NCBI RefSeq assembly: GCF_014697415.1
Contig: NZ_JACJRT010000008.1
Span: forward strand, 1 to 64,000
Source of the DNA: Cyanobium sp. FACHB-13342
GTDB taxonomy: Bacteria > Cyanobacteriota > Cyanobacteriia > PCC-6307 > Cyanobiaceae
Direction of reading: 5' to 3'
DNA: 64,000 bases
Below the pieces are notes generated by a model. It saw only the letters and a list, made by a program, of their open reading frames with translations, was not told where the DNA came from and made no database searches. Numbering within the stretch: the first letter of the stretch is position 1; every line of letters starts with the position of its first letter. The position numbers and the translations under genes were made by a program. Below are positions 18,078 through 53,094 of the stretch, in pieces.

Positions 18078-18255
18078 CTGATCACCACTCCCTTCATGGC
18101 GCTCGAGTGGACCCTAGGAAGGCGGCCAGCCAGGGCTGCCAATCCACCGCTTTTCCACTGCATCACACACCGTGAAGCCGCTCTGCTGCCTGGCGCTCCC
18201 TGCCGGGAAGTCCCCTAGCGTTTGGGCCGCTGGCCGTGGGGATCGGGGTTCACAG

Positions 18256-18546
18256 ATGGGAAACCCAATCAGTGTCGAGCTGTTTCTGCAGCGGGCCCGC
18301 TCTCGGTTTGGGGATCAATACGACTACGGGGCGATGGTCTACAAGAGCTACAAGACGCCGATCCGGATTCGCTGCACCACCCATCCGGTGAAGGAGATCT
18401 CCATCACCCCGGAAAAGCACCTGCAAACCACCGGCGGCTGTAAGTACTGCTTGCGCGAAAAGCGCATCGTCAACCTGGAGCGCGAACTCAACCGCGCCAG
18501 TGCTGAGCGGCCTGCCCAGCTGCGGCCCATCACGGCTCAGGACTGA
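18256..18546 (+). CDS. DUF723-like Cys-containing small protein
   Basis: 96 residues from the ATG at 18256. It contains ARSRFGDQYDYGAMVY, IRIRCTTHPVKEISITPEKH and GGCKYCLREKR, the layout of the DUF723-like repeat: an aromatic YDY motif, a C-x2-H segment and a terminal C-x2-C, probably a small zinc-binding fold. Such repeats are common in phage and endonuclease-like proteins but also occur as stand-alone genes in picocyanobacteria. The role is unknown. It lies next to tRNA-Ser. Confidence 0.6.
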   Translation: MGNPISVELFLQRARSRFGDQYDYGAMVYKSYKTPIRIRCTTHPVKEISITPEKHLQTTGGCKYCLREKRIVNLERELNRASAERPAQLRPITAQD

Positions 18547-18586
18547 GGGATCAGCGGCTCAAGCCCCGGCATACCCGGGCCAGAAA

Positions 18587-18671
18587 CGGAGAGGGTGGGA
18601 TTCGAACCCACGGAGGCTTGCGCCTCGCCGGTTTTCAAGACCGGAGCCATCAACCACTCGACCACCTCTCC
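18587..18671 (-). tRNA. trnS: tRNA-Ser (UGA)
   Basis: An 85-nt tRNA with a perfect 7-bp acceptor stem (GGAGAGG/CCTCTCC), anticodon stem CCGGT/ACCGG around loop CTTGAAA (anticodon TGA), a long variable arm and T-loop GGTTCGAATCC. The CCA end is not encoded. It reads serine UCA codons. Confidence 0.97.
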
Positions 18672-18816
18672 AGGGGGCTGGCCGTACAGGGCCGAGCCGG
18701 CACCATGGTCTCATGACTGGCCGCCCTTGGGGGATCTGAGAACTTGCTGAGAGCAGGCTGCCCCATGGGAGCAATCTGACTAAACTCAAAGGGGAACAGG
18801 GCCCAAGGGGATCCGG

Positions 18817-19986
18817 ATGGTGGTATCGCGACCAACTCGTCGAAAGCGAGTCCTTTCCATCCAGCAGATCTTTTTGCTTCTGGCCATTCTTAATGGAATT
18901 GTACTCGGCTATTTGATCTATTCAGCTTCGACGTTGCTGAGTAATCCGAGCTCCAGTCAGGTTCAGGCACAAACAACAATCTTCTTGGCCGTACTGTTGG
19001 TGATCGGCGTCACGATCTCCTACCGAATTCTCTCCTTGCGGGTGGTCGAGCCCCTGGGCCGTCTGGTGCGTCAGGCGAATGCCATTGCCTCAACCGATAC
19101 CAATGAATTGTTGACCCTGCGGGGCAATGATGAGATCGGCCGCCTCACGGAAGCCTTCAACGCCGTTCTGATCCGTCAACGCCAAGCCTATGACCTGGTC
19201 GATTCGGCACACCAACGCCTGAAGGACGTCACCAAACAGGTTGATGATTCCATTCAGTACGCTGCCCTGCTTCAAAAATCGATTCTTCCCAATCGGCAGC
19301 TACGCGAGCGCTTTGGCAACGATCACTTCATCCTTTGGCAGCCGCGCGATACGGTTGGAGGGGATTATTACGTCTTCCACGAAGAGGGTGGACGCTGCCT
19401 CGCCGGAGTGGCTGATTGCGCTGGCCATGGGGTGTCTGGGGCGATGATGACCATGTTGGCCCGAGCGGGCATTGATCGCTCGATTCAACTCAAGGGAATC
19501 GGCTCACCAGCTGCCGTGCTTAAAGCTACCAATGATGGGATGCACAGCATTCTGAGTGAGGCCCAATTGTCTCGGGCAATCGCCACAACCATGGATGTGG
19601 GGCTTGTTCTGATTGACGCCGAATCTCAGCTACTCCGTTTCGCCGGTGCCAAGATCTGGCTCTATTGGAGTGACGGCAAAACCGTTCACTTCATCAAGGG
19701 CGATAACCGTAGCCTGTGGGATCGCCGCACCGGCGACTATCACGACCATGACGTGCCGTTGAGCTCTGGCAACACCTACTACCTCACCACCGATGGTTTC
19801 CTGGACCAGGCGGGGGGTGAGCATGGGTTTGGACTCGGGTCTGATCGGTTTTCCCAGTGGATTCTGGAACATGCCCACAAGCCACTTGGTGAACAGCATG
19901 AGGCCTTTTCCAAGGCTTTGGACGCGTTTAAAGGGGACCATCCCCAGCGCGATGACATCACCATGCTCTCCTTCCGTTTCAGCTAA
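18817..19986 (+). CDS. siaA: SiaA-like membrane PP2C (SpoIIE-type) phosphatase with HAMP domain
   Basis: 389 residues: TM1 about 17-39, a periplasmic loop of only about 13 residues, TM2 about 53-73, HAMP about 74-125, a short coiled linker and a SpoIIE/PP2C phosphatase domain from about 150. Metal-binding Asp residues are visible at VGGDYY (D183) and VADCAGHGVSGAMM (D200), with RDDITMLSF at the end. In Pseudomonas aeruginosa, SiaA dephosphorylates SiaC to activate SiaD. The siaB-, siaC- and siaD-like genes follow here in the same order. It lacks the large periplasmic sensor of the Pseudomonas protein. Codon usage is less GC-rich than neighbouring core genes. Confidence 0.82.
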   Translation: MVVSRPTRRKRVLSIQQIFLLLAILNGIVLGYLIYSASTLLSNPSSSQVQAQTTIFLAVLLVIGVTISYRILSLRVVEPLGRLVRQANAIASTDTNELLTLRGNDEIGRLTEAFNAVLIRQRQAYDLVDSAHQRLKDVTKQVDDSIQYAALLQKSILPNRQLRERFGNDHFILWQPRDTVGGDYYVFHEEGGRCLAGVADCAGHGVSGAMMTMLARAGIDRSIQLKGIGSPAAVLKATNDGMHSILSEAQLSRAIATTMDVGLVLIDAESQLLRFAGAKIWLYWSDGKTVHFIKGDNRSLWDRRTGDYHDHDVPLSSGNTYYLTTDGFLDQAGGEHGFGLGSDRFSQWILEHAHKPLGEQHEAFSKALDAFKGDHPQRDDITMLSFRFS

Positions 19987-20045
19987 TGCAGTTCAAGCAT
20001 CCCTGATCCCCCTCAGATGGTAAAATCGAAGTCAGCAAACAGCCC

Positions 20046-20603
20046 ATGGACAGCTCCCTAACAACCAGTCGAAGCCTCTCCTCCTTGAGAGACTTCTTCA
20101 CCCACGAGCGGATTTTGATCTGTTTCAATGGGCCAACCTCGCGAACTCTGATTGGTGAAATCGGAGCGGCTCTAAAAGAGCACATTGAATCCACCAGGGA
20201 GTGCATGTCATCCGCAATGGATGTCTTTAGTGTCTACATCGAAATGAGTCAAAATATCAGGCACTACACGGCGGCACGTGGCTACAACGATCAGGATGCG
20301 ACGGCAACTGTCGTGATCGCCGAGTCTGGAGTCGATCGTTATATTGTTTCTGCTGGCAATATGATTGAGTTGTCCGACGGTCAGCAATTATTGCAGCGTG
20401 TTTTAGAGCTGGCTCGACTCGACAAGGCAGAGCTGAAGTCTCTCTACAAGGAGCAACTGCGGCGGCCCCGGGAAGAGGGGGCTGTGACCGGTGCCGGCCT
20501 TGGGTTAATTGATGTTGCCCGTAAGTCGTCTGAGCCCCTGCAAGCCAGCCTCGATGAGCTTGGCGCCGGCAAGGCCTTTTTCACACTCCGTGCCACAATC
20601 TGA
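20046..20603 (+). CDS. siaB: SiaB-like kinase
   Basis: 185 residues matching the SiaB layout: an N-terminal segment, a central helix with EMSQNIRHY (the N-box-like part of a GHKL fold) and GAVTGAGLGLIDVARKS (the G-box-like part). In Pseudomonas SiaB phosphorylates SiaC on a Thr and so turns the pathway off. It starts 59 bases after siaA and ends 5 bases before siaC, so the genes are surely co-transcribed. An anti-sigma-type kinase is the alternative reading, but the DUF1987 neighbour favours SiaB. Confidence 0.75.
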   Translation: MDSSLTTSRSLSSLRDFFTHERILICFNGPTSRTLIGEIGAALKEHIESTRECMSSAMDVFSVYIEMSQNIRHYTAARGYNDQDATATVVIAESGVDRYIVSAGNMIELSDGQQLLQRVLELARLDKAELKSLYKEQLRRPREEGAVTGAGLGLIDVARKSSEPLQASLDELGAGKAFFTLRATI

Positions 20604-20608
20604 GGGTC

Positions 20609-21007
20609 ATGACAAACACTGATTTCCAGAAAAATCTGAGTCTGGCCCCAACCCAGTCCACCCCCGCAGTCAAAGGTGAGTGGGACACAGGGCTGCTCGT
20701 CATGACGGGAGAGTCCTACCCAGAAAATACCTATGAAATTTTTGACTCCATCATAGGCTGGGTGGAAGAGTTTCTTGGTTCTGAAGATCGACCACTAAAG
20801 GTTGAGTTGAAGCTTAATTACTTAAATACCAGTAGTATTCGCGCCATGATCGATATTTTTGACAGGCTTCAGTCTGCTGCTGATGATGGCAGGTCAATAA
20901 CTGTGTTTTGGTTCTACGACAGTCGTAACCCCCGTTCGGCCGAGTTGGGTGAAGAGTTCAAAGAAGATTATACTTTTGATTTTGAGATCGCTGCCGTCGC
21001 GGCCTAG
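20609..21007 (+). CDS. siaC: SiaC-like phospho-switch protein (DUF1987)
   Basis: 132 residues. The core VELKLNYLNTSSIRAMIDIFDRL is the DUF1987/SiaC signature; Thr74 or the adjacent Ser75/76 corresponds to the phosphorylated Thr region of SiaC. Unphosphorylated SiaC binds and stimulates the diguanylate cyclase SiaD. The sequence starts with a roughly 20-residue extension before the conserved part. This gene is clearly AT-richer than its surroundings (for example around 20,810-20,850), which may reflect transfer. It is followed after 11 bases by siaD. Confidence 0.85.
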   Translation: MTNTDFQKNLSLAPTQSTPAVKGEWDTGLLVMTGESYPENTYEIFDSIIGWVEEFLGSEDRPLKVELKLNYLNTSSIRAMIDIFDRLQSAADDGRSITVFWFYDSRNPRSAELGEEFKEDYTFDFEIAAVAA

Positions 21008-21018
21008 CTTTTGCCGTC

Positions 21019-21837
21019 ATGCCTTCACCCGGTGATCTCCGTTCGTCCGATGCCTTTGATGAGCGCATTGCTGAGCTTTTAGCCGATGAAGCCTATTTGG
21101 GTCATCCCCTGAGGGAAGCCTTGGCAGAGCTCATGGAGCGCATGACGCAGCAGGTGTCACGTCTGGAGCGGATCACCCAGATCTCTGATCGCTACCAAAC
21201 TGGCGTGCAGGAACGGGTGCGAAACCTGTCCCGGCGGTATGACCGGCAGATTCGCACCCTAGAGCGTGCCATCAGCATCTCTGACCGCTACCAGTCGATG
21301 CTGAACGACCTCAACAAGGCTCTGCGGGAGGCCTCGACCCACGATCTGCTCACCTCGATCCCCAACCGTCGCTTGATGTCCGAGCGTTGTCGCATTGAGG
21401 ATGAGCGGCTGGCACGTGAAGAGGGCACCTACTCCCTGCTCACCATGGACGTTGACCGCTTCAAGCAGTTCAACGACGTCTATGGCCACGACGTGGGTGA
21501 TGAGGTGCTGATTGAGTTGGCCAATTCCTTTACCAAGAGCCTGCGTGAGTACGACTCCTGCGGCCGTTGGGGTGGGGAAGAGTTTCTTGCCCTCTTGGTC
21601 AATGCTGACCTCGATACGGCCTCTGATGTTGCCCAACGCATGTTGGAAAATACCCGGGCTCTGAGAATCAAGGTCGGCGAAGAGGTGTTGCGGGCCACCA
21701 TCAGCATTGGCGTGGCTGAACGGGCCGAAGGTGAGGTGTACACCCAAACCTACAAACGGGCTGACGATGCCCTGCTTTTGGCCAAGCAGTCGGGCCGGGA
21801 CCAGTTTGTGATCGCCGACCCGCCCGCTCGAGACTGA
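21019..21837 (+). CDS. siaD: SiaD-like diguanylate cyclase
   Basis: 272 residues: an N-terminal coiled coil (about 35-105) with two repeats of ISDRYQ, then a GGDEF-family domain with GGEEF at 185-189, so catalysis should be intact. The product-inhibition site RxxD is present (REYD, 176-179), exactly five residues before GGEEF. No EAL domain and no membrane segment. The coiled-coil stalk is the part that SiaC binds in Pseudomonas. It should make cyclic di-GMP from GTP under control of the three upstream genes. Confidence 0.88.
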   Translation: MPSPGDLRSSDAFDERIAELLADEAYLGHPLREALAELMERMTQQVSRLERITQISDRYQTGVQERVRNLSRRYDRQIRTLERAISISDRYQSMLNDLNKALREASTHDLLTSIPNRRLMSERCRIEDERLAREEGTYSLLTMDVDRFKQFNDVYGHDVGDEVLIELANSFTKSLREYDSCGRWGGEEFLALLVNADLDTASDVAQRMLENTRALRIKVGEEVLRATISIGVAERAEGEVYTQTYKRADDALLLAKQSGRDQFVIADPPARD

Positions 21838-21854: not shown

Positions 21855-24242
21855 TCAGTTGTTGCTGGGTTTGGCCAGAGGCAGCAGGCACTTGTCGGAG
21901 TCACAGCCCGCAGGGCCGGCTTCGACCAGTTCTCCGCGGTCGTAGCGCTGCAGCGCTTCAAAGAAGCAGGTGGTGCTGCGTCGCTCGGCCACTTCGGCGG
22001 TGAGGCGCTGGTACGTGGCCGCATCGATCGGCTCAAACGGCAGCCGCGGGAATGTGGCGTTGGCATCAAAGCGGGCCAGCAGGGCCGCCGAGATGTAGCC
22101 CTCGCCTTGGTCGATGGCCTTGTGGATGGCCTCGGCCAGCGGTTCGATTTCATGCTCCCGAAACTCGACCGTGGCGGACGTGTTGTGGGCCGTGTAGTGC
22201 TTCTGCACTTGCATGTAGAAATCGAACTGGGCCAGGGCTGAGAAGTTGTTGATCTCCACCTGATCGGCGCCGGGGATGTTGGCCCAGCTCACTTCCGTGG
22301 GGATCTCCACCAGCCACTCCGTGCAGCGGGGATCAAAGGCATCGTCGAGCAGGCGACCCTGGTCGTCCTTGTCGGATTGGGAGGGCACGATCGTGTAGCC
22401 GTAATCCATGCAGGCCAGGGCCACCGGATCGTTCTTGCGGAAGGTGATGCGGCGGATGAAGCGCTGGGCCTTGGGGGGATGCCAGCCGGGGGAGGCGCCG
22501 GTGAGCAGGCTCTTGGTGCCTGCCGGTTGCACGGTGGTGCAGCGGTTGGGGCGGCGCAGGCCGTGGCGATCGCAGTAGTCCCACACCGACTGGTTGACGA
22601 TCTCTTTCCAGCGGCTGAGGAATTCGGCCTCCTGGGCCTTGAAGGCCAGGCCCGCTTCCGTTTCGGGGCGGCCCGCTTCCCACCACTGCAGCCAGGGGGT
22701 GCCGAAGGCGTGAACGAAGAAGTCGAACAGGCCGGTGAAGCTCACCCCCACGATCGGATCCCAGGCCCGGCTCTGGCGGTAGCGCTCCACCTCAAAGCGA
22801 TGGTTGAGCAGGCAGGCCACGGCGAGCCCACCGGCCCGGAAGGCTTCCTCCTGGGCCACCAAGTCGGCGGGGTCGATCTGGTTGAGGTGGATTTCGGCCA
22901 GGTTGCAGTGGAAGTCGGCGCCGAGAATTTCGCCGCAGGGGTTGAGGCCGTAACGGCCGAGGCGGTGCTCCAGCTCGGCGGCACCGATCTCCGGGTGGTG
23001 GGTCGTGAGCCAGATCCCAGCCTGCTCCCTGCCCTGGTCGCAGTAGATGCCGATGAACTCCGTGCGCAGCTCTGGGGTGGTCAGCAGGTCGGCGTTGGAG
23101 CGGGCAATGGCTTCGGGGGCGAACTGGATGGCGCCCTCTCCGCTCTGGAATTGCTTGTTCACAGCTTCCAACACCGTCTCCCGCGAGGGGCGGCTGTGGA
23201 AGACGCGGGTGTGGTTGGCCATGCGCAGGGCATCGCGCTCGGGATCGATGCGCCAGTTGCCCTCGCTGTCCTGTTGCCAGAGGTTTTCCTTGGCTCCCGC
23301 GGCGGAGTTGTCCTCGGCGCTGAACTGCCGCATGCCGGCGCTGCGGCGGATGTTGCCGGCCACGATGGTGACGGCAGCCTCATCGATCAGCAGGCAGCAC
23401 TCCACCGAGGTGAGCTGGCGGCCCTGGGCCCTGTTGAGGATCTGGGCCACGCGGCCGTAGAGGTCCTTGAGCTTCACCGGGTTGGCCATGCCGCCAAATC
23501 CCTTGAGGGTTTCCCCCACCGGCCGCACGTCGGAGAGATCCACCGAGATTTCGATGGGGGTGGCGGGGTCGAAGCGCTCATCGCTGCAGAGGTTGAGCAG
23601 CAGCTGGTAGCTGTCAACCCAGCCGCGGCGGGTGTCGCCCACCTTGATGGCCACGCGGTTGCCATCGATGGTGTGGCTGGTGTGTTCCTGGCGCTGGCCT
23701 GCGGGTGTGGCGCCGATGTCGGTGACGCCCGTAATGGTCAGCTGGTTGCGCACCGCCGGCAGGCGGTTGATCAGGTGGGGCTCAATGATGGCGCCCGTGC
23801 CGCAGCCCATCATCGCCAGATCCATCATCAGCCCGAAGGCTTCCCAATCCACCAGGTTGGTGGAGGTGCAGTTGTAGGAGCCGGAAAAGTTCTCGCTGCG
23901 CTCGATCCACTCGGTGCCGCCAATCCACAGCCAGCGGCCGGAGGGCAGGGCCTTCTGCTGCTGCTGCATGCGGCGCAGCAGGGCCACTTCCTCGTCGTTG
24001 AGGTTGCCCAGGCGGCGCAGGCCGCCCAGGTTGCGCTCGGCCACCTGAAACCAGCTCTCCCGGCCGGTTTCGGTTTTGCGGCTGTAGGTGCGGTAGAAGA
24101 CCGGGTTGGCGGCCGGTGCCGTGGCCGGGAAGTCGAGGGCCTCGCCCGCCGGACTGCCGCTGGCGGCGGCATAGGCCTTTTCAGCTGCAGCCTTTTCGGC
24201 GGCTTCGCTGATCGAGGAGGGGGGCGTGGCGGAGAGGGTCAC
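21855..24242 (-). CDS. nrdJ: Adenosylcobalamin-dependent ribonucleotide reductase (class II)
   Basis: 795 residues from the GTG at 24242 ([10 protein letters not shown]); the frame is open to 24317 but that would run further into the divergent region. It reduces ribonucleotides to deoxyribonucleotides with vitamin B12. Visible are the first redox Cys (SYNCTST), the radical-site motif NPCGEI, a [20 protein letters not shown] block, and the C-terminal redox pair CDSDKC. Class II monomeric enzymes of this type are typical of picocyanobacteria and need no oxygen and no NrdB. It converges on siaD with only 17 bases between the stops. Confidence 0.95.
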
Positions 24243-24370
24243 AGGCGGTACGGCCCTGGGGTGAGCCGAACCATAACGCCACCGGTGGGGTGTGCAAGAA
24301 GCCGTTGACACCAGCAACAGTGGGCCCTGGAGCGGGGTGGGCAGACTGGTTGCTGCTGCTGAGGCGCCTG

Positions 24371-25594: not shown

Positions 25595-26761
25595 TTGTTT
25601 TCGGTTGTTCCCCAAGATGGCCGCCTGGCTGCAGAGCAGGCAGCATGGGTTGTTTCGATAGGCCCTGGCGTGGTCGAGCGCTTTTTGGATCCACGCCGGC
25701 CAAGGCGTCACCGCTGGCGTTGGGCGGCTCTCGTGGCTTTCGGGCTTGCGGTGACGCTGTTTTGGGGCAGCGGCTTTCAGGGTTGGAGCTCCGCTGCCGC
25801 CCCTGCCCAATCGAGCCCAGCACCCCCCACCAGATTGGAGCCCTTCGGGCGGGGGGGCGATCCTCTGGCTCCTGGGGTGTTGCAGCTGGGTGTCTATCTG
25901 ACCGTGATTGATGACATCAATCTGCTGGGGAATCAGTTTGGGGCTGAGTTTTTCCTCTGGACCCGCTGGGCAGGTTCCGCCGCAACCAATCCCAGTGATC
26001 GCCTCACCGTTCTCAATGCACCCAGCAACAATGATATCGATCGCTTCGAGTTGCTGGAGCGGCGTCAGCTGGGCGCAGTCAGCTGGAGCCTCTACAAGGT
26101 GCGGTGCCAAGTGGCGATGCCTTGGCGGTTAAACGATTATCCGTTGGATCGCCATCACCTGCAGATCAAAATAGGCTTGGAAAACCCCCTTGTGGAGGGG
26201 ATCGCCTTTAAGGTGGACAAGGCACAATCCTATATCGACCCTGACTTCATCCTCTACGACTGGAGCATTTCGCCCCTGAGAATTGATGTCTCCACTCTGA
26301 GTCTTAAGGGCCGTCTTGGGCTGCCAGATGAGGGTGGTCATGACGTCTCTTCCAGGCCGGTCGTTGATCTTTCTCTTGTGATTCGGCGTCGTAGTGAACT
26401 GGCGCTTTGGTCTAGCTTCTTGGGGAATTTCCTGGCCATTGGGCTTTGTATTCTTGCGCTGATCATTCGGGATAGCCGTGATGATCTCATTCTTGGCGCG
26501 GTGTTTTCAGCGGCTGGTAATTCCATCTATTTGGCCCAGCTCTTGCCGGCTTCTGCCCTTTCGGGTTTTGCGGGTCAATTTCAAGTGATCATTTATGTGG
26601 GCATCGTTTATGTTGTGATCGCGGATGAGTTGTTGGATCGCGTGTTCTCTTCTCAGGCCGAATCAGTGCTGCGCTATCTGCGCCCCGTTTTATTGCCCAG
26701 CTATGTGCTGGCGACCATGGTTTCGGTCTATCAGATATTGCCCTCTAATTTGTATTCCTGA
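25595..26761 (+). CDS. Pentameric ligand-gated ion channel-like protein
   Basis: 388 residues from a TTG at 25595, preceded by GGAG; a GTG at 25670 is the alternative. A signal-anchor-like helix (about 43-58) leads to an extracytoplasmic beta-rich domain. VYLTVIDDINLLGNQFGAEFFLWTRW resembles the start of the ligand-binding domain, and MPWRLNDYPLDRHHLQI matches the signature loop (F-P-x-D-x-Q-x-L) of Cys-loop receptors and bacterial relatives. Four hydrophobic segments at about 268-291, 297-318, 326-345 and 363-385 fit M1-M4. The ligand and ion are unknown. It is followed 15 bases later by a binding-protein-like gene and is less GC-rich than its neighbours. Confidence 0.6.
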   Translation: MFSVVPQDGRLAAEQAAWVVSIGPGVVERFLDPRRPRRHRWRWAALVAFGLAVTLFWGSGFQGWSSAAAPAQSSPAPPTRLEPFGRGGDPLAPGVLQLGVYLTVIDDINLLGNQFGAEFFLWTRWAGSAATNPSDRLTVLNAPSNNDIDRFELLERRQLGAVSWSLYKVRCQVAMPWRLNDYPLDRHHLQIKIGLENPLVEGIAFKVDKAQSYIDPDFILYDWSISPLRIDVSTLSLKGRLGLPDEGGHDVSSRPVVDLSLVIRRRSELALWSSFLGNFLAIGLCILALIIRDSRDDLILGAVFSAAGNSIYLAQLLPASALSGFAGQFQVIIYVGIVYVVIADELLDRVFSSQAESVLRYLRPVLLPSYVLATMVSVYQILPSNLYS

Positions 26762-50906: not shown

Positions 50907-51338
50907 GTGGATCCTGTTCAAGCTCAGACTCCCTACCTTCCTGTCGACCCCGACCCTGGCAGCCAGGGGATACCCACGATCGAGGCCCTGCAGAACAGCG
51001 ATCGCCCCTTCGTGCTGGCCAATTCCCTTGGAGAGGTTGTGTCGATCAATGCAGCCTTTCAAGCCACCTACGGTTGGACGGAGGATCAACTGCGTGGTCA
51101 GTCACTGAGCTTGATTCTTCCGGGATCCTTTCAGATGTCCCACCAGCTGGGATTCTCCCGCTTCCAGGCCACGGAACAGTCCACGATTTTGGCCCATCCC
51201 CTGCGGCTCAAGACCGTGTGTGCCGACGGCACGGAGGTGGTGTCGGAGCATTTCATCCTCGGCGAGAAGCGAGAGACCGGCTGGGTGTTTGGAGCCACCC
51301 TCACCCCGCTGCCGGACTGTGTCGAAACCGATGCCTGA
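50907..51338 (+). CDS. Stand-alone PAS domain protein
   Basis: 143 residues from a GTG. One PAS domain: RPFVLANSLGEVVSINAAFQ, TYGWTEDQLRGQSLSLILP, then EVVSEHFILGEKRETGWVFG. No effector domain is attached. Its stop lies inside the start of the next gene (ATGCCTGA, 8-base overlap), so it is coupled to a PAS-GGDEF-EAL protein and probably senses a signal for it. Confidence 0.8.
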   Translation: MDPVQAQTPYLPVDPDPGSQGIPTIEALQNSDRPFVLANSLGEVVSINAAFQATYGWTEDQLRGQSLSLILPGSFQMSHQLGFSRFQATEQSTILAHPLRLKTVCADGTEVVSEHFILGEKRETGWVFGATLTPLPDCVETDA

Positions 51339-53094
51339 TGACACGCTGATCCAGGAGCTGCGCCGCACCCTTGGCCGGCTGGATTCGGCCCTCGGCCAGA
51401 TCAGTGAGGGACTGGTTCTGGTTGACGCGATCGGCCAGGTGTTGTGGACGAATGCCGCCTTCGATGGGCTGGTGGGGAAGTCGCGCCTGGAGATCCTCGG
51501 TGTGGATCTCCATCAGCTGCTGCCGCGCAACTTTGTTGATGAGCCGATTCTCACGATTGAACAGACCCGAGGAGGGCTTTTAAAAACAGGTTTTGTGACG
51601 GCCATTCTCTGTGAGGATCCGGTTTCCGCTCTCGAAATTGAATGGCGCCCCGTGGTGACCGAGGTGCCCAATCCCCTGATGTTTTGCTTCCGGGATGTGA
51701 GTGCCCGGATCTCCTTTGATGAGCTTCAGCAGAAGAGCCGGCAGACCGAAGAGAGATGGTTAAAGGCCAACCAGATGTATCTCGATCTGCAGTCGAAGCA
51801 GTTGGCCTTGGCCGCCAAGGTGATGAAGTGCCCGGTGACCGGGCTGCCGAACCGCCGGGGCCTGCGCTCCAAGATGGCGGCGGCCCTGCGCCACCTGCGT
51901 CGCACCCCCGGCAATGTCACCCTGTTGTTCTGTGATCTGAACCGCTTCAAGGAGGTCAATGACGTCTATGGCCACCAGGTGGGGGATGAACTGCTGATTG
52001 AGGTGGGCAAGCGCCTCCAGGCCACCCTCCGGCCGGAGGATGTGCTGGCCCGTCTTGGTGGCGATGAGTTTGTCGTGCTCAGCCCCGACATCCCCACGCC
52101 GATGGCGGCCGTGCAGGTGGCGGAACGCCTGCAGGCGGCCCTCGCGGTGCCCTGGAAGATCCAGGACTACGTGATCACGCCGAGCATGAGCATCGGCATC
52201 GCCTCCACGGATGATGCCGAGATGACGGTCGACGAACTGTTGCGTCGTGCTGACTTGGCCATGTATTCAGCCAAGGGCAACGCCGAGCGCTCGATCACCA
52301 TCTTTGACCATGTCATTGATGAACAGGTCAAGCGGGGAATCCTGATCAAACGCCAGTTGCAGGATGCGATTGACAGTGACCTGTTGCGGGTGGACTTCCA
52401 GCCCATTGTCAACCTGGAAACCCGAGAGTCGGTGGGCTATGAAGCCCTGTCCCGGGTCCGGGATATTGAAGGTGGTTGGATTTCACCCGTCGACTTCATT
52501 CCCGTCGCTGAAAGCGTGGGCCTGATTGATCCCCTGGGGGATCTGGTGTTGCGGCGCTGCCTGGAGGTGTTGCGCCTGTTGGGGCATCCGAGCACTGATC
52601 AGGTGATCTCGATCAATGTCAGTCCCCTGCAGATCTGCCGGCAAGGCCTGGCAGCCCGGGTGATCCAACTGGCGGAGCGGGCCCAAGTGGAGTTCTCGGC
52701 CTTGGCGATCGAGGTCACGGAATCGGTACTGATTGATCGACCCATCGAGGCGATGCGGGAATTGGAGTCCCTCCGGGCGGTGGGCTGCCGGGTGTATCTC
52801 GATGATTTCGGCACGGGGTACTCGAGCATGTCCTGGTTGGCCCAGTTGCCCATTGATGCCATCAAGATCGATCGCAGTTTTGTCATGGGCCTGCTCACCG
52901 ATCCCCGCCGCGCCCTTGTGGTGGCTTCGATGATTCGCCTCTCCAGGGATCTGGGTCTCGACGTGATTGCGGAAGGGGTGGAGCAGGAAGACCAGGCCCA
53001 GGCCCTGCTGGCGATGGGCTGTTGCAAGGCCCAGGGATTTCTGTTCGGTCGTCCCGCTCCGATTCCCGCCTCAGTGGAGGCTCGCGCGCTCTGA
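51331..53094 (+). CDS. PAS-GGDEF-EAL cyclic di-GMP signalling protein
   Basis: 587 residues from the ATG at 51331. Order: a PAS domain at about 20-130, a short coiled helix, a GGDEF domain with GGDEF at 243-247 and an inhibition site RPED five residues before it, and an EAL domain with EAL at 371-373 and the metal-binding DDFGTGYSS at about 491-499. All key motifs for both cyclic di-GMP synthesis and breakdown appear present, so it may be bifunctional. No membrane segment. The coupled PAS protein upstream likely regulates it. Confidence 0.9.
   Translation: MPDDTLIQELRRTLGRLDSALGQISEGLVLVDAIGQVLWTNAAFDGLVGKSRLEILGVDLHQLLPRNFVDEPILTIEQTRGGLLKTGFVTAILCEDPVSALEIEWRPVVTEVPNPLMFCFRDVSARISFDELQQKSRQTEERWLKANQMYLDLQSKQLALAAKVMKCPVTGLPNRRGLRSKMAAALRHLRRTPGNVTLLFCDLNRFKEVNDVYGHQVGDELLIEVGKRLQATLRPEDVLARLGGDEFVVLSPDIPTPMAAVQVAERLQAALAVPWKIQDYVITPSMSIGIASTDDAEMTVDELLRRADLAMYSAKGNAERSITIFDHVIDEQVKRGILIKRQLQDAIDSDLLRVDFQPIVNLETRESVGYEALSRVRDIEGGWISPVDFIPVAESVGLIDPLGDLVLRRCLEVLRLLGHPSTDQVISINVSPLQICRQGLAARVIQLAERAQVEFSALAIEVTESVLIDRPIEAMRELESLRAVGCRVYLDDFGTGYSSMSWLAQLPIDAIKIDRSFVMGLLTDPRRALVVASMIRLSRDLGLDVIAEGVEQEDQAQALLAMGCCKAQGFLFGRPAPIPASVEARAL

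Follow-up and report, generated by a model that had tools for sequence, protein, structure and literature searches.

A SiaABCD-type operon of picocyanobacteria with a SiaA phosphatase that has no periplasmic domain

Introduction

The closest described relative of the operon discussed here is the SiaABCD system of Pseudomonas aeruginosa, which we take to be encoded by PA0172-PA0169 (locus tags). In that system SiaC is the phosphorylation target of SiaB and is dephosphorylated by SiaA; once free, it converts the cyclase SiaD to an active dimer (PMC7278518, PMC8457831). PMC12834913, from 2025, proposes SiaA as a sensor of membrane perturbation on cold downshift and compares R8, K10 and S11 of its first transmembrane helix (TM1) to the sunken-buoy motif of the Bacillus subtilis thermosensor DesK; the chimera described there swapped the first 336 residues of SiaA, and the periplasmic domain and the helices could not be separated. 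Here we describe a related operon of Cyanobium sp. FACHB-13342, located at 18817-21837 of a 64,000-nucleotide stretch (contig NZ_JACJRT010000008.1, positions 1 to 64,000; hereafter the window).

The operon resembles that of P. aeruginosa in gene set and order, in SiaB, SiaC and SiaD equivalogs, in the phosphorylated threonine, the PP2C ligands, the two stalk motifs, the GGEEF site and the product-inhibition site (I-site) of the cyclase, whereas its SiaA has no periplasmic (dCache-like) domain, carries an unrelated-looking TM1 and fails the equivalog cut-off. With DesK, a histidine kinase of another family, the likeness would lie in the proposed principle only, polar TM1 residues reading the membrane, as put forward in PMC12834913; it is drawn by analogy and no homology is claimed. 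The slr1658-type cyanobacterial regulators (NCBIfam NF047703/NF052618) are distant SiaB-family relatives by profile, as indicated by a weak match of a divergent proteobacterial SiaB (locus L243), whereas the SiaB described here is a full SiaB equivalog with no slr1658 match at E 0.001.

Results

Four open reading frames (ORFs), all on the + strand and contiguous in the order A-B-C-D, make up the operon, and it is confirmed that the window carries at 18817-21837 a real, selected SiaABCD-type operon:

18817..19986, + strand: siaA-type gene, 389 residues; membrane PP2C (SpoIIE-type) phosphatase with a transmembrane hairpin, HAMP, coiled linker and PP2C, without periplasmic domain (ORF call, Pfam, NCBIfam, PDB, AlphaFold2)
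20046..20603, + strand: siaB, 185 residues; predicted protein kinase of SiaC, presumed catalytic Glu E66 (Pfam, NCBIfam, PDB, alignment)
20609..21007, + strand: siaC, 132 residues; phospho-switch protein (Pfam, NCBIfam, PDB)
21019..21837, + strand: siaD, 272 residues; diguanylate cyclase with N-terminal stalk, GGEEF active site and RxxD I-site (Pfam, NCBIfam, PDB, alignment)

The intergenic gaps are 59, 5 and 11 bp. The original prediction had read the genes, in this order, as SiaA, SiaB, SiaC (DUF1987) and SiaD, and Pfam, NCBIfam and PDB matches agree with it; the SiaB and DUF1987 profiles, named beforehand among the points at which that reading could fail, both matched. Pfam assigns SpoIIE and HAMP to SiaA, DUF6272 to SiaB, PF09345 to SiaC (1.5e-36; 125.1 bits, cut-off 24.5) and GGDEF to SiaD. 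SiaB, SiaC and SiaD pass the NCBIfam equivalogs NF038264 (254.4 bits, cut-off 225), NF038265 (177.1 bits, cut-off 150) and NF038266 (305.6 bits, cut-off 290), respectively. The top PDB sequence matches are P. aeruginosa proteins throughout: 6k4e, the SiaA PP2C domain (6.6e-94), 6kko for SiaB (5.5e-62), 6k4f/6kko for SiaC (~3e-41) and 7e6g for SiaD (3.9e-77). The host genome holds one SiaC match. A scan for sigma-70-type promoters returned one site, inside siaC, versus 1.5 expected, an unremarkable outcome.

The features of SiaA are as follows:

18850..18942, + strand: first membrane helix, about residues 12-42, with clade-invariant I15, Q16, F19, N26, L30 and L33 (hydrophobic windows, alignment, AlphaFold2)
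18961..19038, + strand: second membrane helix (TM2), about residues 49-74, running into HAMP (hydrophobic windows, AlphaFold2)
19030..19170, + strand: HAMP domain, residues 72-118 (Pfam)
19387..19980, + strand: PP2C/SpoIIE catalytic domain, Pfam stretch 191-388, with ligand D183 just N-terminal of it

SiaA has no periplasmic domain, as originally predicted; the figure of about 13 periplasmic residues given with that prediction depends on the method, since 18 residues separate the two 19-residue hydrophobic windows (12-30 and 49-67) and the AlphaFold2 model breaks the helix between the membrane spans at residue 43 only. In this model (mean predicted local distance difference test score 79.9, predicted TM-score 0.61) the helices cover 15-42, 44-93 and then 106-155, and its best Foldseek match is again 6k4e (4.6e-29, TM-score 0.90 by target length). 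The reading frame that contains SiaA is open over only 400 residues, therefore no sensor is hidden upstream in it. The PP2C residues D183, D200, G203, D326, G327 and D379 are invariant in 31 alignment rows and would correspond, at a constant offset of 274, to the six metal-site residues D457, D474, G477, D600, G601 and D653 that PMC7647112 gives for P. aeruginosa SiaA.

The short SiaA is a feature of the clade. We measured the spacing between the two hydrophobic windows in 20 of 22 cyanobacterial loci (L108 and L110 are partial) and in 54 of 58 non-cyanobacterial ones, the four without a value being L169 and L184 (no siaA in the stretch), L133 (687 residues, one window) and L167 (537 residues, none). 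All 20 measured cyanobacterial SiaAs have 14-24 residues between the windows (median 18), versus 272-293 in 53/54 measured non-cyanobacterial close relatives; the odd value, 11 in L174, reflects an additional hydrophobic window called within the long region of that protein. A dCache_1-like Pfam match, below cut-off, falls in the periplasmic region of two of the four full-length proteobacterial SiaAs tried (L142, L115). Compared with its close orthologues, the cyanobacterial SiaA group is characterised by having lost the periplasmic region.

TM1 is strongly conserved. The TM1 stripe [ST]IQxxF...N[GS]x[VA]LxxL is present in 30/30 distinct cyanobacterial SiaAs, a count that overstates independence because the rows are related; those outside the genus share only 49-66% identity with host SiaA. 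I15, Q16, F19, N26, L30 and L33 of TM1, as well as L61 and S68 of TM2, are identical in all 30, position 14 is S or T, 27 is G or S, 29 is V or A and 32 is Y in 28, and the TM1-TM2 loop varies. By their spacing, residues 16, 19, 26, 30 and 33 would fall on one helix face. The proteobacterial TM1 consensus, GLRxKSxxAL..., is not recognisably the cyanobacterial helix.

The residues of the relay were compared in a 16-row alignment that includes the P. aeruginosa stretch, whose numbering serves as reference, and the following sites were placed:

20828..20830, + strand: SiaC Thr74 codon, corresponding to phosphosite T68 of P. aeruginosa (alignment)
21160..21210, + strand: first predicted SiaC-binding motif of the SiaD stalk, about residues 48-64, with S56 and Q60 (alignment)
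21256..21309, + strand: second predicted SiaC-binding motif of the SiaD stalk, about residues 80-97, with S88 and Q92 (alignment)

The threonine singled out in the original prediction is T74, which lies in the stretch YLNTSS and aligns with T68 of P. aeruginosa. In SiaC, Y65, N67, T68, S69, R103, E110 and D114 (P. aeruginosa numbering) are identical in 16/16 rows; in host numbering the invariant residues are YLNTSS, R109, E116 and D120. The roles assigned to them are those given in PMC8457831. The coiled-coil stalk and GGEEF of SiaD are likewise present as predicted, and its I-site residues R176, D179 and R207 (R170, D173 and R201 in P. aeruginosa), which include the predicted RxxD, are invariant in the alignment. 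SiaB E66 aligns with the presumed catalytic Glu of P. aeruginosa SiaB, numbered E61 in PMC7647112 and E62 by a chain-based count, a one-residue offset that we attribute to chain numbering.

Selection on the operon is purifying. The ratios of nonsynonymous to synonymous substitution rates (dN/dS), calculated after Nei and Gojobori with our own script, were 0.027-0.058 against G214 and 0.048-0.060 against G183 in the six unsaturated comparisons; two of the eight were saturated.

SiaC was found in 26/251 genomes of the host family (6/59 genera) and in 3/16 listed genomes of the host genus. A survey of the phylum (339 genomes) gave strong SiaC matches in five, all of the same family, and weak matches in other cyanobacteria, at 24.5 bits (G355, just at the cut-off) and 20.6 bits (G352). 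The order siaABCD recurs in 25/25 other family loci, one cut by a contig end (G180) and one with broken frames (G200), and an additional gene inside the operon was found in none of the 25. The broken frames belong to a metagenome-assembled genome (L048/L108 in G200), in which siaA runs over two frames and siaC is shortened by a stop, through either decay or assembly error.

The operon occupies the same site in several genera. Its flanks in the window are:

18586..18672, - strand: tRNA-Ser(UGA), left flank of the operon site, present in all other loci with a readable flank
21855..24317, - strand: nrdJ (B12-dependent ribonucleotide reductase), right flank of the operon site

The tRNA lies on the siaA side in 24/25 other loci, at a distance of 27-2620 bp, and nrdJ adjoins siaD in 21/25, within ~170 bp (in L028 the match overlaps). 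In ten congeners that have no sia genes, tRNA and nrdJ are 45-64 bp apart in six and 563-972 bp apart in three, and in the last (L201) no tRNA was found in the 2.7 kb before the contig end. One gap between tRNA and siaA (L035) holds a Na/Ca exchanger gene (Pfam) and a gene for a pentapeptide-repeat protein (by eye), both on the opposite strand. Beside the tRNA in the window, at 18172-18546, lies an ORF of 124 residues with a CxxC-containing stretch and no Pfam match, which has same-site relatives in L030, L031, L032 and L037.

A tree of the four proteins joined (78 rows; L108, L169 and L184 dropped) places the 22 cyanobacterial operons on one side of one branch, with a Shimodaira-Hasegawa-like approximate likelihood ratio test (SH-aLRT) value of 100 in the first run; a careful run gave the same branch bootstrap/SH-aLRT values of 100/100, and it was present in 100% of 200 bootstrap trees. 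Midpoint rooting sets the cyanobacterial branch among Pseudomonadota, in a tree that is in fact unrooted and has a long stem (0.42) with long-branch warnings. As the cyanobacterial distribution is narrow, the direction of transfer would be from proteobacteria to cyanobacteria. A single ancestral acquisition at one site with repeated later losses fits best and is favoured over repeated transfer among cyanobacteria, which the shared flanks and the single grouping make unlikely. Beyond the original prediction, then, the short SiaA is clade-wide and the tRNA-Ser(UGA)/nrdJ site is conserved, and it looks as if one old acquisition was followed by losses.

Outside the cyanobacteria, a survey of 398 Pseudomonadota genomes returned eight best SiaA orthologues (47-54% identity, open frames of 674-859 residues), one of them from the centre genome already among the sampled loci. 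The other 53 matching genomes hold more distant phosphatases (≤40% identity in the listed matches), some short, and four of these were inspected. L241, a contig of 3.6 kb only, and L242 showed no SiaB, SiaC or SiaD match near the phosphatase. In the pair L243/L244 (G935 and G742) phosphatase, SiaB-family kinase, SiaC-like and SiaD-like genes stand side by side as in the host, at 27-35% identity, with SiaB and SiaC below the equivalog cut-offs; their phosphatases have no transmembrane window and an N-terminus that is CBS-like by eye, a soluble input as opposed to the membrane hairpin of the host. The phosphatase of L167, from Holophagaceae, is PAS-type and has no transmembrane segment either.

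Discussion

We judge it rather probable that the operon works as a partner switch of the SiaABCD type, that it entered the picocyanobacterial family once, in an ancestor of some of its members, and that the TM1-TM2 hairpin of SiaA serves as its membrane-state input. We infer the phosphorylation chemistry, the membrane sensing and the output, every step of the relay by homology with P. aeruginosa. SiaB would phosphorylate SiaC at T74 and so keep it off SiaD, SiaA would take the phosphate off, and free SiaC would attach to the stalk of SiaD and switch on synthesis of cyclic di-GMP (c-di-GMP), which may limit its own production at the I-site. The tight hairpin would feed HAMP and then PP2C, and by analogy its invariant Gln/Phe/Asn/Leu face on TM1 may read membrane thickness, fluidity or packing (cold, stress) directly. 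The switch probably governs attachment or aggregation, a choice between single cell and microcolony.

Several observations weigh against this proposal. SiaA is below the NF038263 cut-off (425.6 vs 700 bits) and aligns to positions 308-657 of 658 only; it misses the cut-off because the periplasmic half of the model is unmatched, and as SiaA fails a tested defining feature we class the operon as a SiaABCD variant. R8, K10 and S11 of the P. aeruginosa helix are not those of the cyanobacterial TM1, and a search of seven genomes with SiaA residues 11-75 found no hairpin relative beyond siaA and no donor, the best other matches being at E 0.165-0.217 and 23-26% identity. Since the P. aeruginosa residues differ and the hairpin has no relative outside siaA in those seven genomes, the idea of membrane sensing by cyanobacterial SiaA draws on conservation and analogy. 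On the side of the relay, the first stalk motif (S50/Q54 in P. aeruginosa, S56/Q60 here) has lost its Ser in 4/16 rows, and the Ser and Gln of the second (S82/Q86, here S88/Q92) are kept in 15/16 and degraded in L037. Three interface arginines of P. aeruginosa SiaD, R74, R80 and R90, are replaced by T, S and N, respectively, in host SiaD, therefore parts of the SiaC-SiaD interface differ. The SiaB of one relative (L032 in G183), whose four genes are open, has Lys (AAG) in place of the presumed catalytic Glu, which may reflect either a natural variant with weakened kinase activity or a mistake in sequencing. Apart from this proposal, sensor loss unique to cyanobacteria had to be rejected as a general claim in view of the soluble phosphatases of L243 and L244; the uniqueness holds for close orthologues only, and no hairpin-only SiaA was found outside cyanobacteria in the part checked. 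Because these two phosphatases are soluble and CBS-like and that of L167 is PAS-type, Sia-type modules swap input domains, and the cyanobacterial hairpin is one such variant.

Could the sensor simply have been lost, leaving a constitutive phosphatase with control residing in expression, in SiaB or in feedback of c-di-GMP on SiaD? The missing periplasmic domain and the retained I-site speak for this, yet a mere membrane anchor would need neither six TM1 residues identical in 30/30 cyanobacterial SiaAs nor the HAMP domain that has been kept; we consider constitutive activity possible and on the whole unlikely. Hairpin-only receptors can receive input from partner proteins, and the conserved TM1 face could serve as a docking surface, so that a separate protein, perhaps encoded elsewhere, may signal to SiaA via the hairpin or HAMP. 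This we regard as less likely still: none of the 25 other loci carries an extra gene within the operon, the flanks are a tRNA and usually nrdJ, and the one tRNA-siaA gap that was read holds only opposite-strand exchanger and pentapeptide-repeat genes. It is very improbable that the operon is a decaying or recently acquired passenger with no role, since the low dN/dS values already contradict it, as do the shared site in several genera and the four intact frames of the host, against which stand the patchy distribution in family and genus, the broken frames in G200 and the Lys of the L032 SiaB.

Cyanobacterial SiaA offers a natural test case for the sensing mechanism of this phosphatase: as it is without the periplasmic domain, the question of domain versus helices is directly testable. 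In a stronger form, which strikes us as doubtful, the switch was rebuilt in one picocyanobacterial lineage as a pure membrane-state sensor, from an invariant Gln/Asn-bearing hairpin through PP2C to c-di-GMP and a single-cell or microcolony life; were it true, a free-living, single-cell habit would be expected where the operon has been lost. According to PMC8955281 and PMC11316352, freshwater picocyanobacteria live either as single cells or in microcolonies, and the operon is a candidate switch between the two states. A whole phospho-relay plus its cyclase has apparently moved between phyla and been kept at one site. Searches of one open-access library listed no paper on Sia in cyanobacteria (subscription journals lay largely outside the search), and the original remark that this pathway had not been described for picocyanobacteria stands uncontradicted, with the reservation that automatic annotation would probably name SiaB, SiaC and SiaD, because the NCBIfam models already recognise all three.

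With 16 GGDEF, 9 EAL and 4 PilZ matches in the host genome (2.37 Mb), a c-di-GMP network exists for the operon to plug into. Among 39 genomes, GGDEF matches number 7-36 in the 26 SiaC-positive and 0-11 in the 13 negative ones; within the genus, counts of 16, 18 and 25 in the three positives all lie above those of the ten tested negatives (0-11; rank p = 0.0035, uncorrected for kinship). One SiaC-positive genome (G180) has no PilZ match. A GGDEF+EAL protein, one of the 16, is encoded in the window at 51220-53094. Elsewhere in the host genome (G000:C9:17600-17917; L218:3580-4824, - strand) an ORF of 414 residues is predicted to fuse a class III adenylate/guanylate cyclase to PilZ, which suggests a link between two nucleotide messengers. 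At 25595-26761 the window also holds an ORF of 388 residues that by eye resembles pentameric ligand-gated channels and has no Pfam match at E 0.01.

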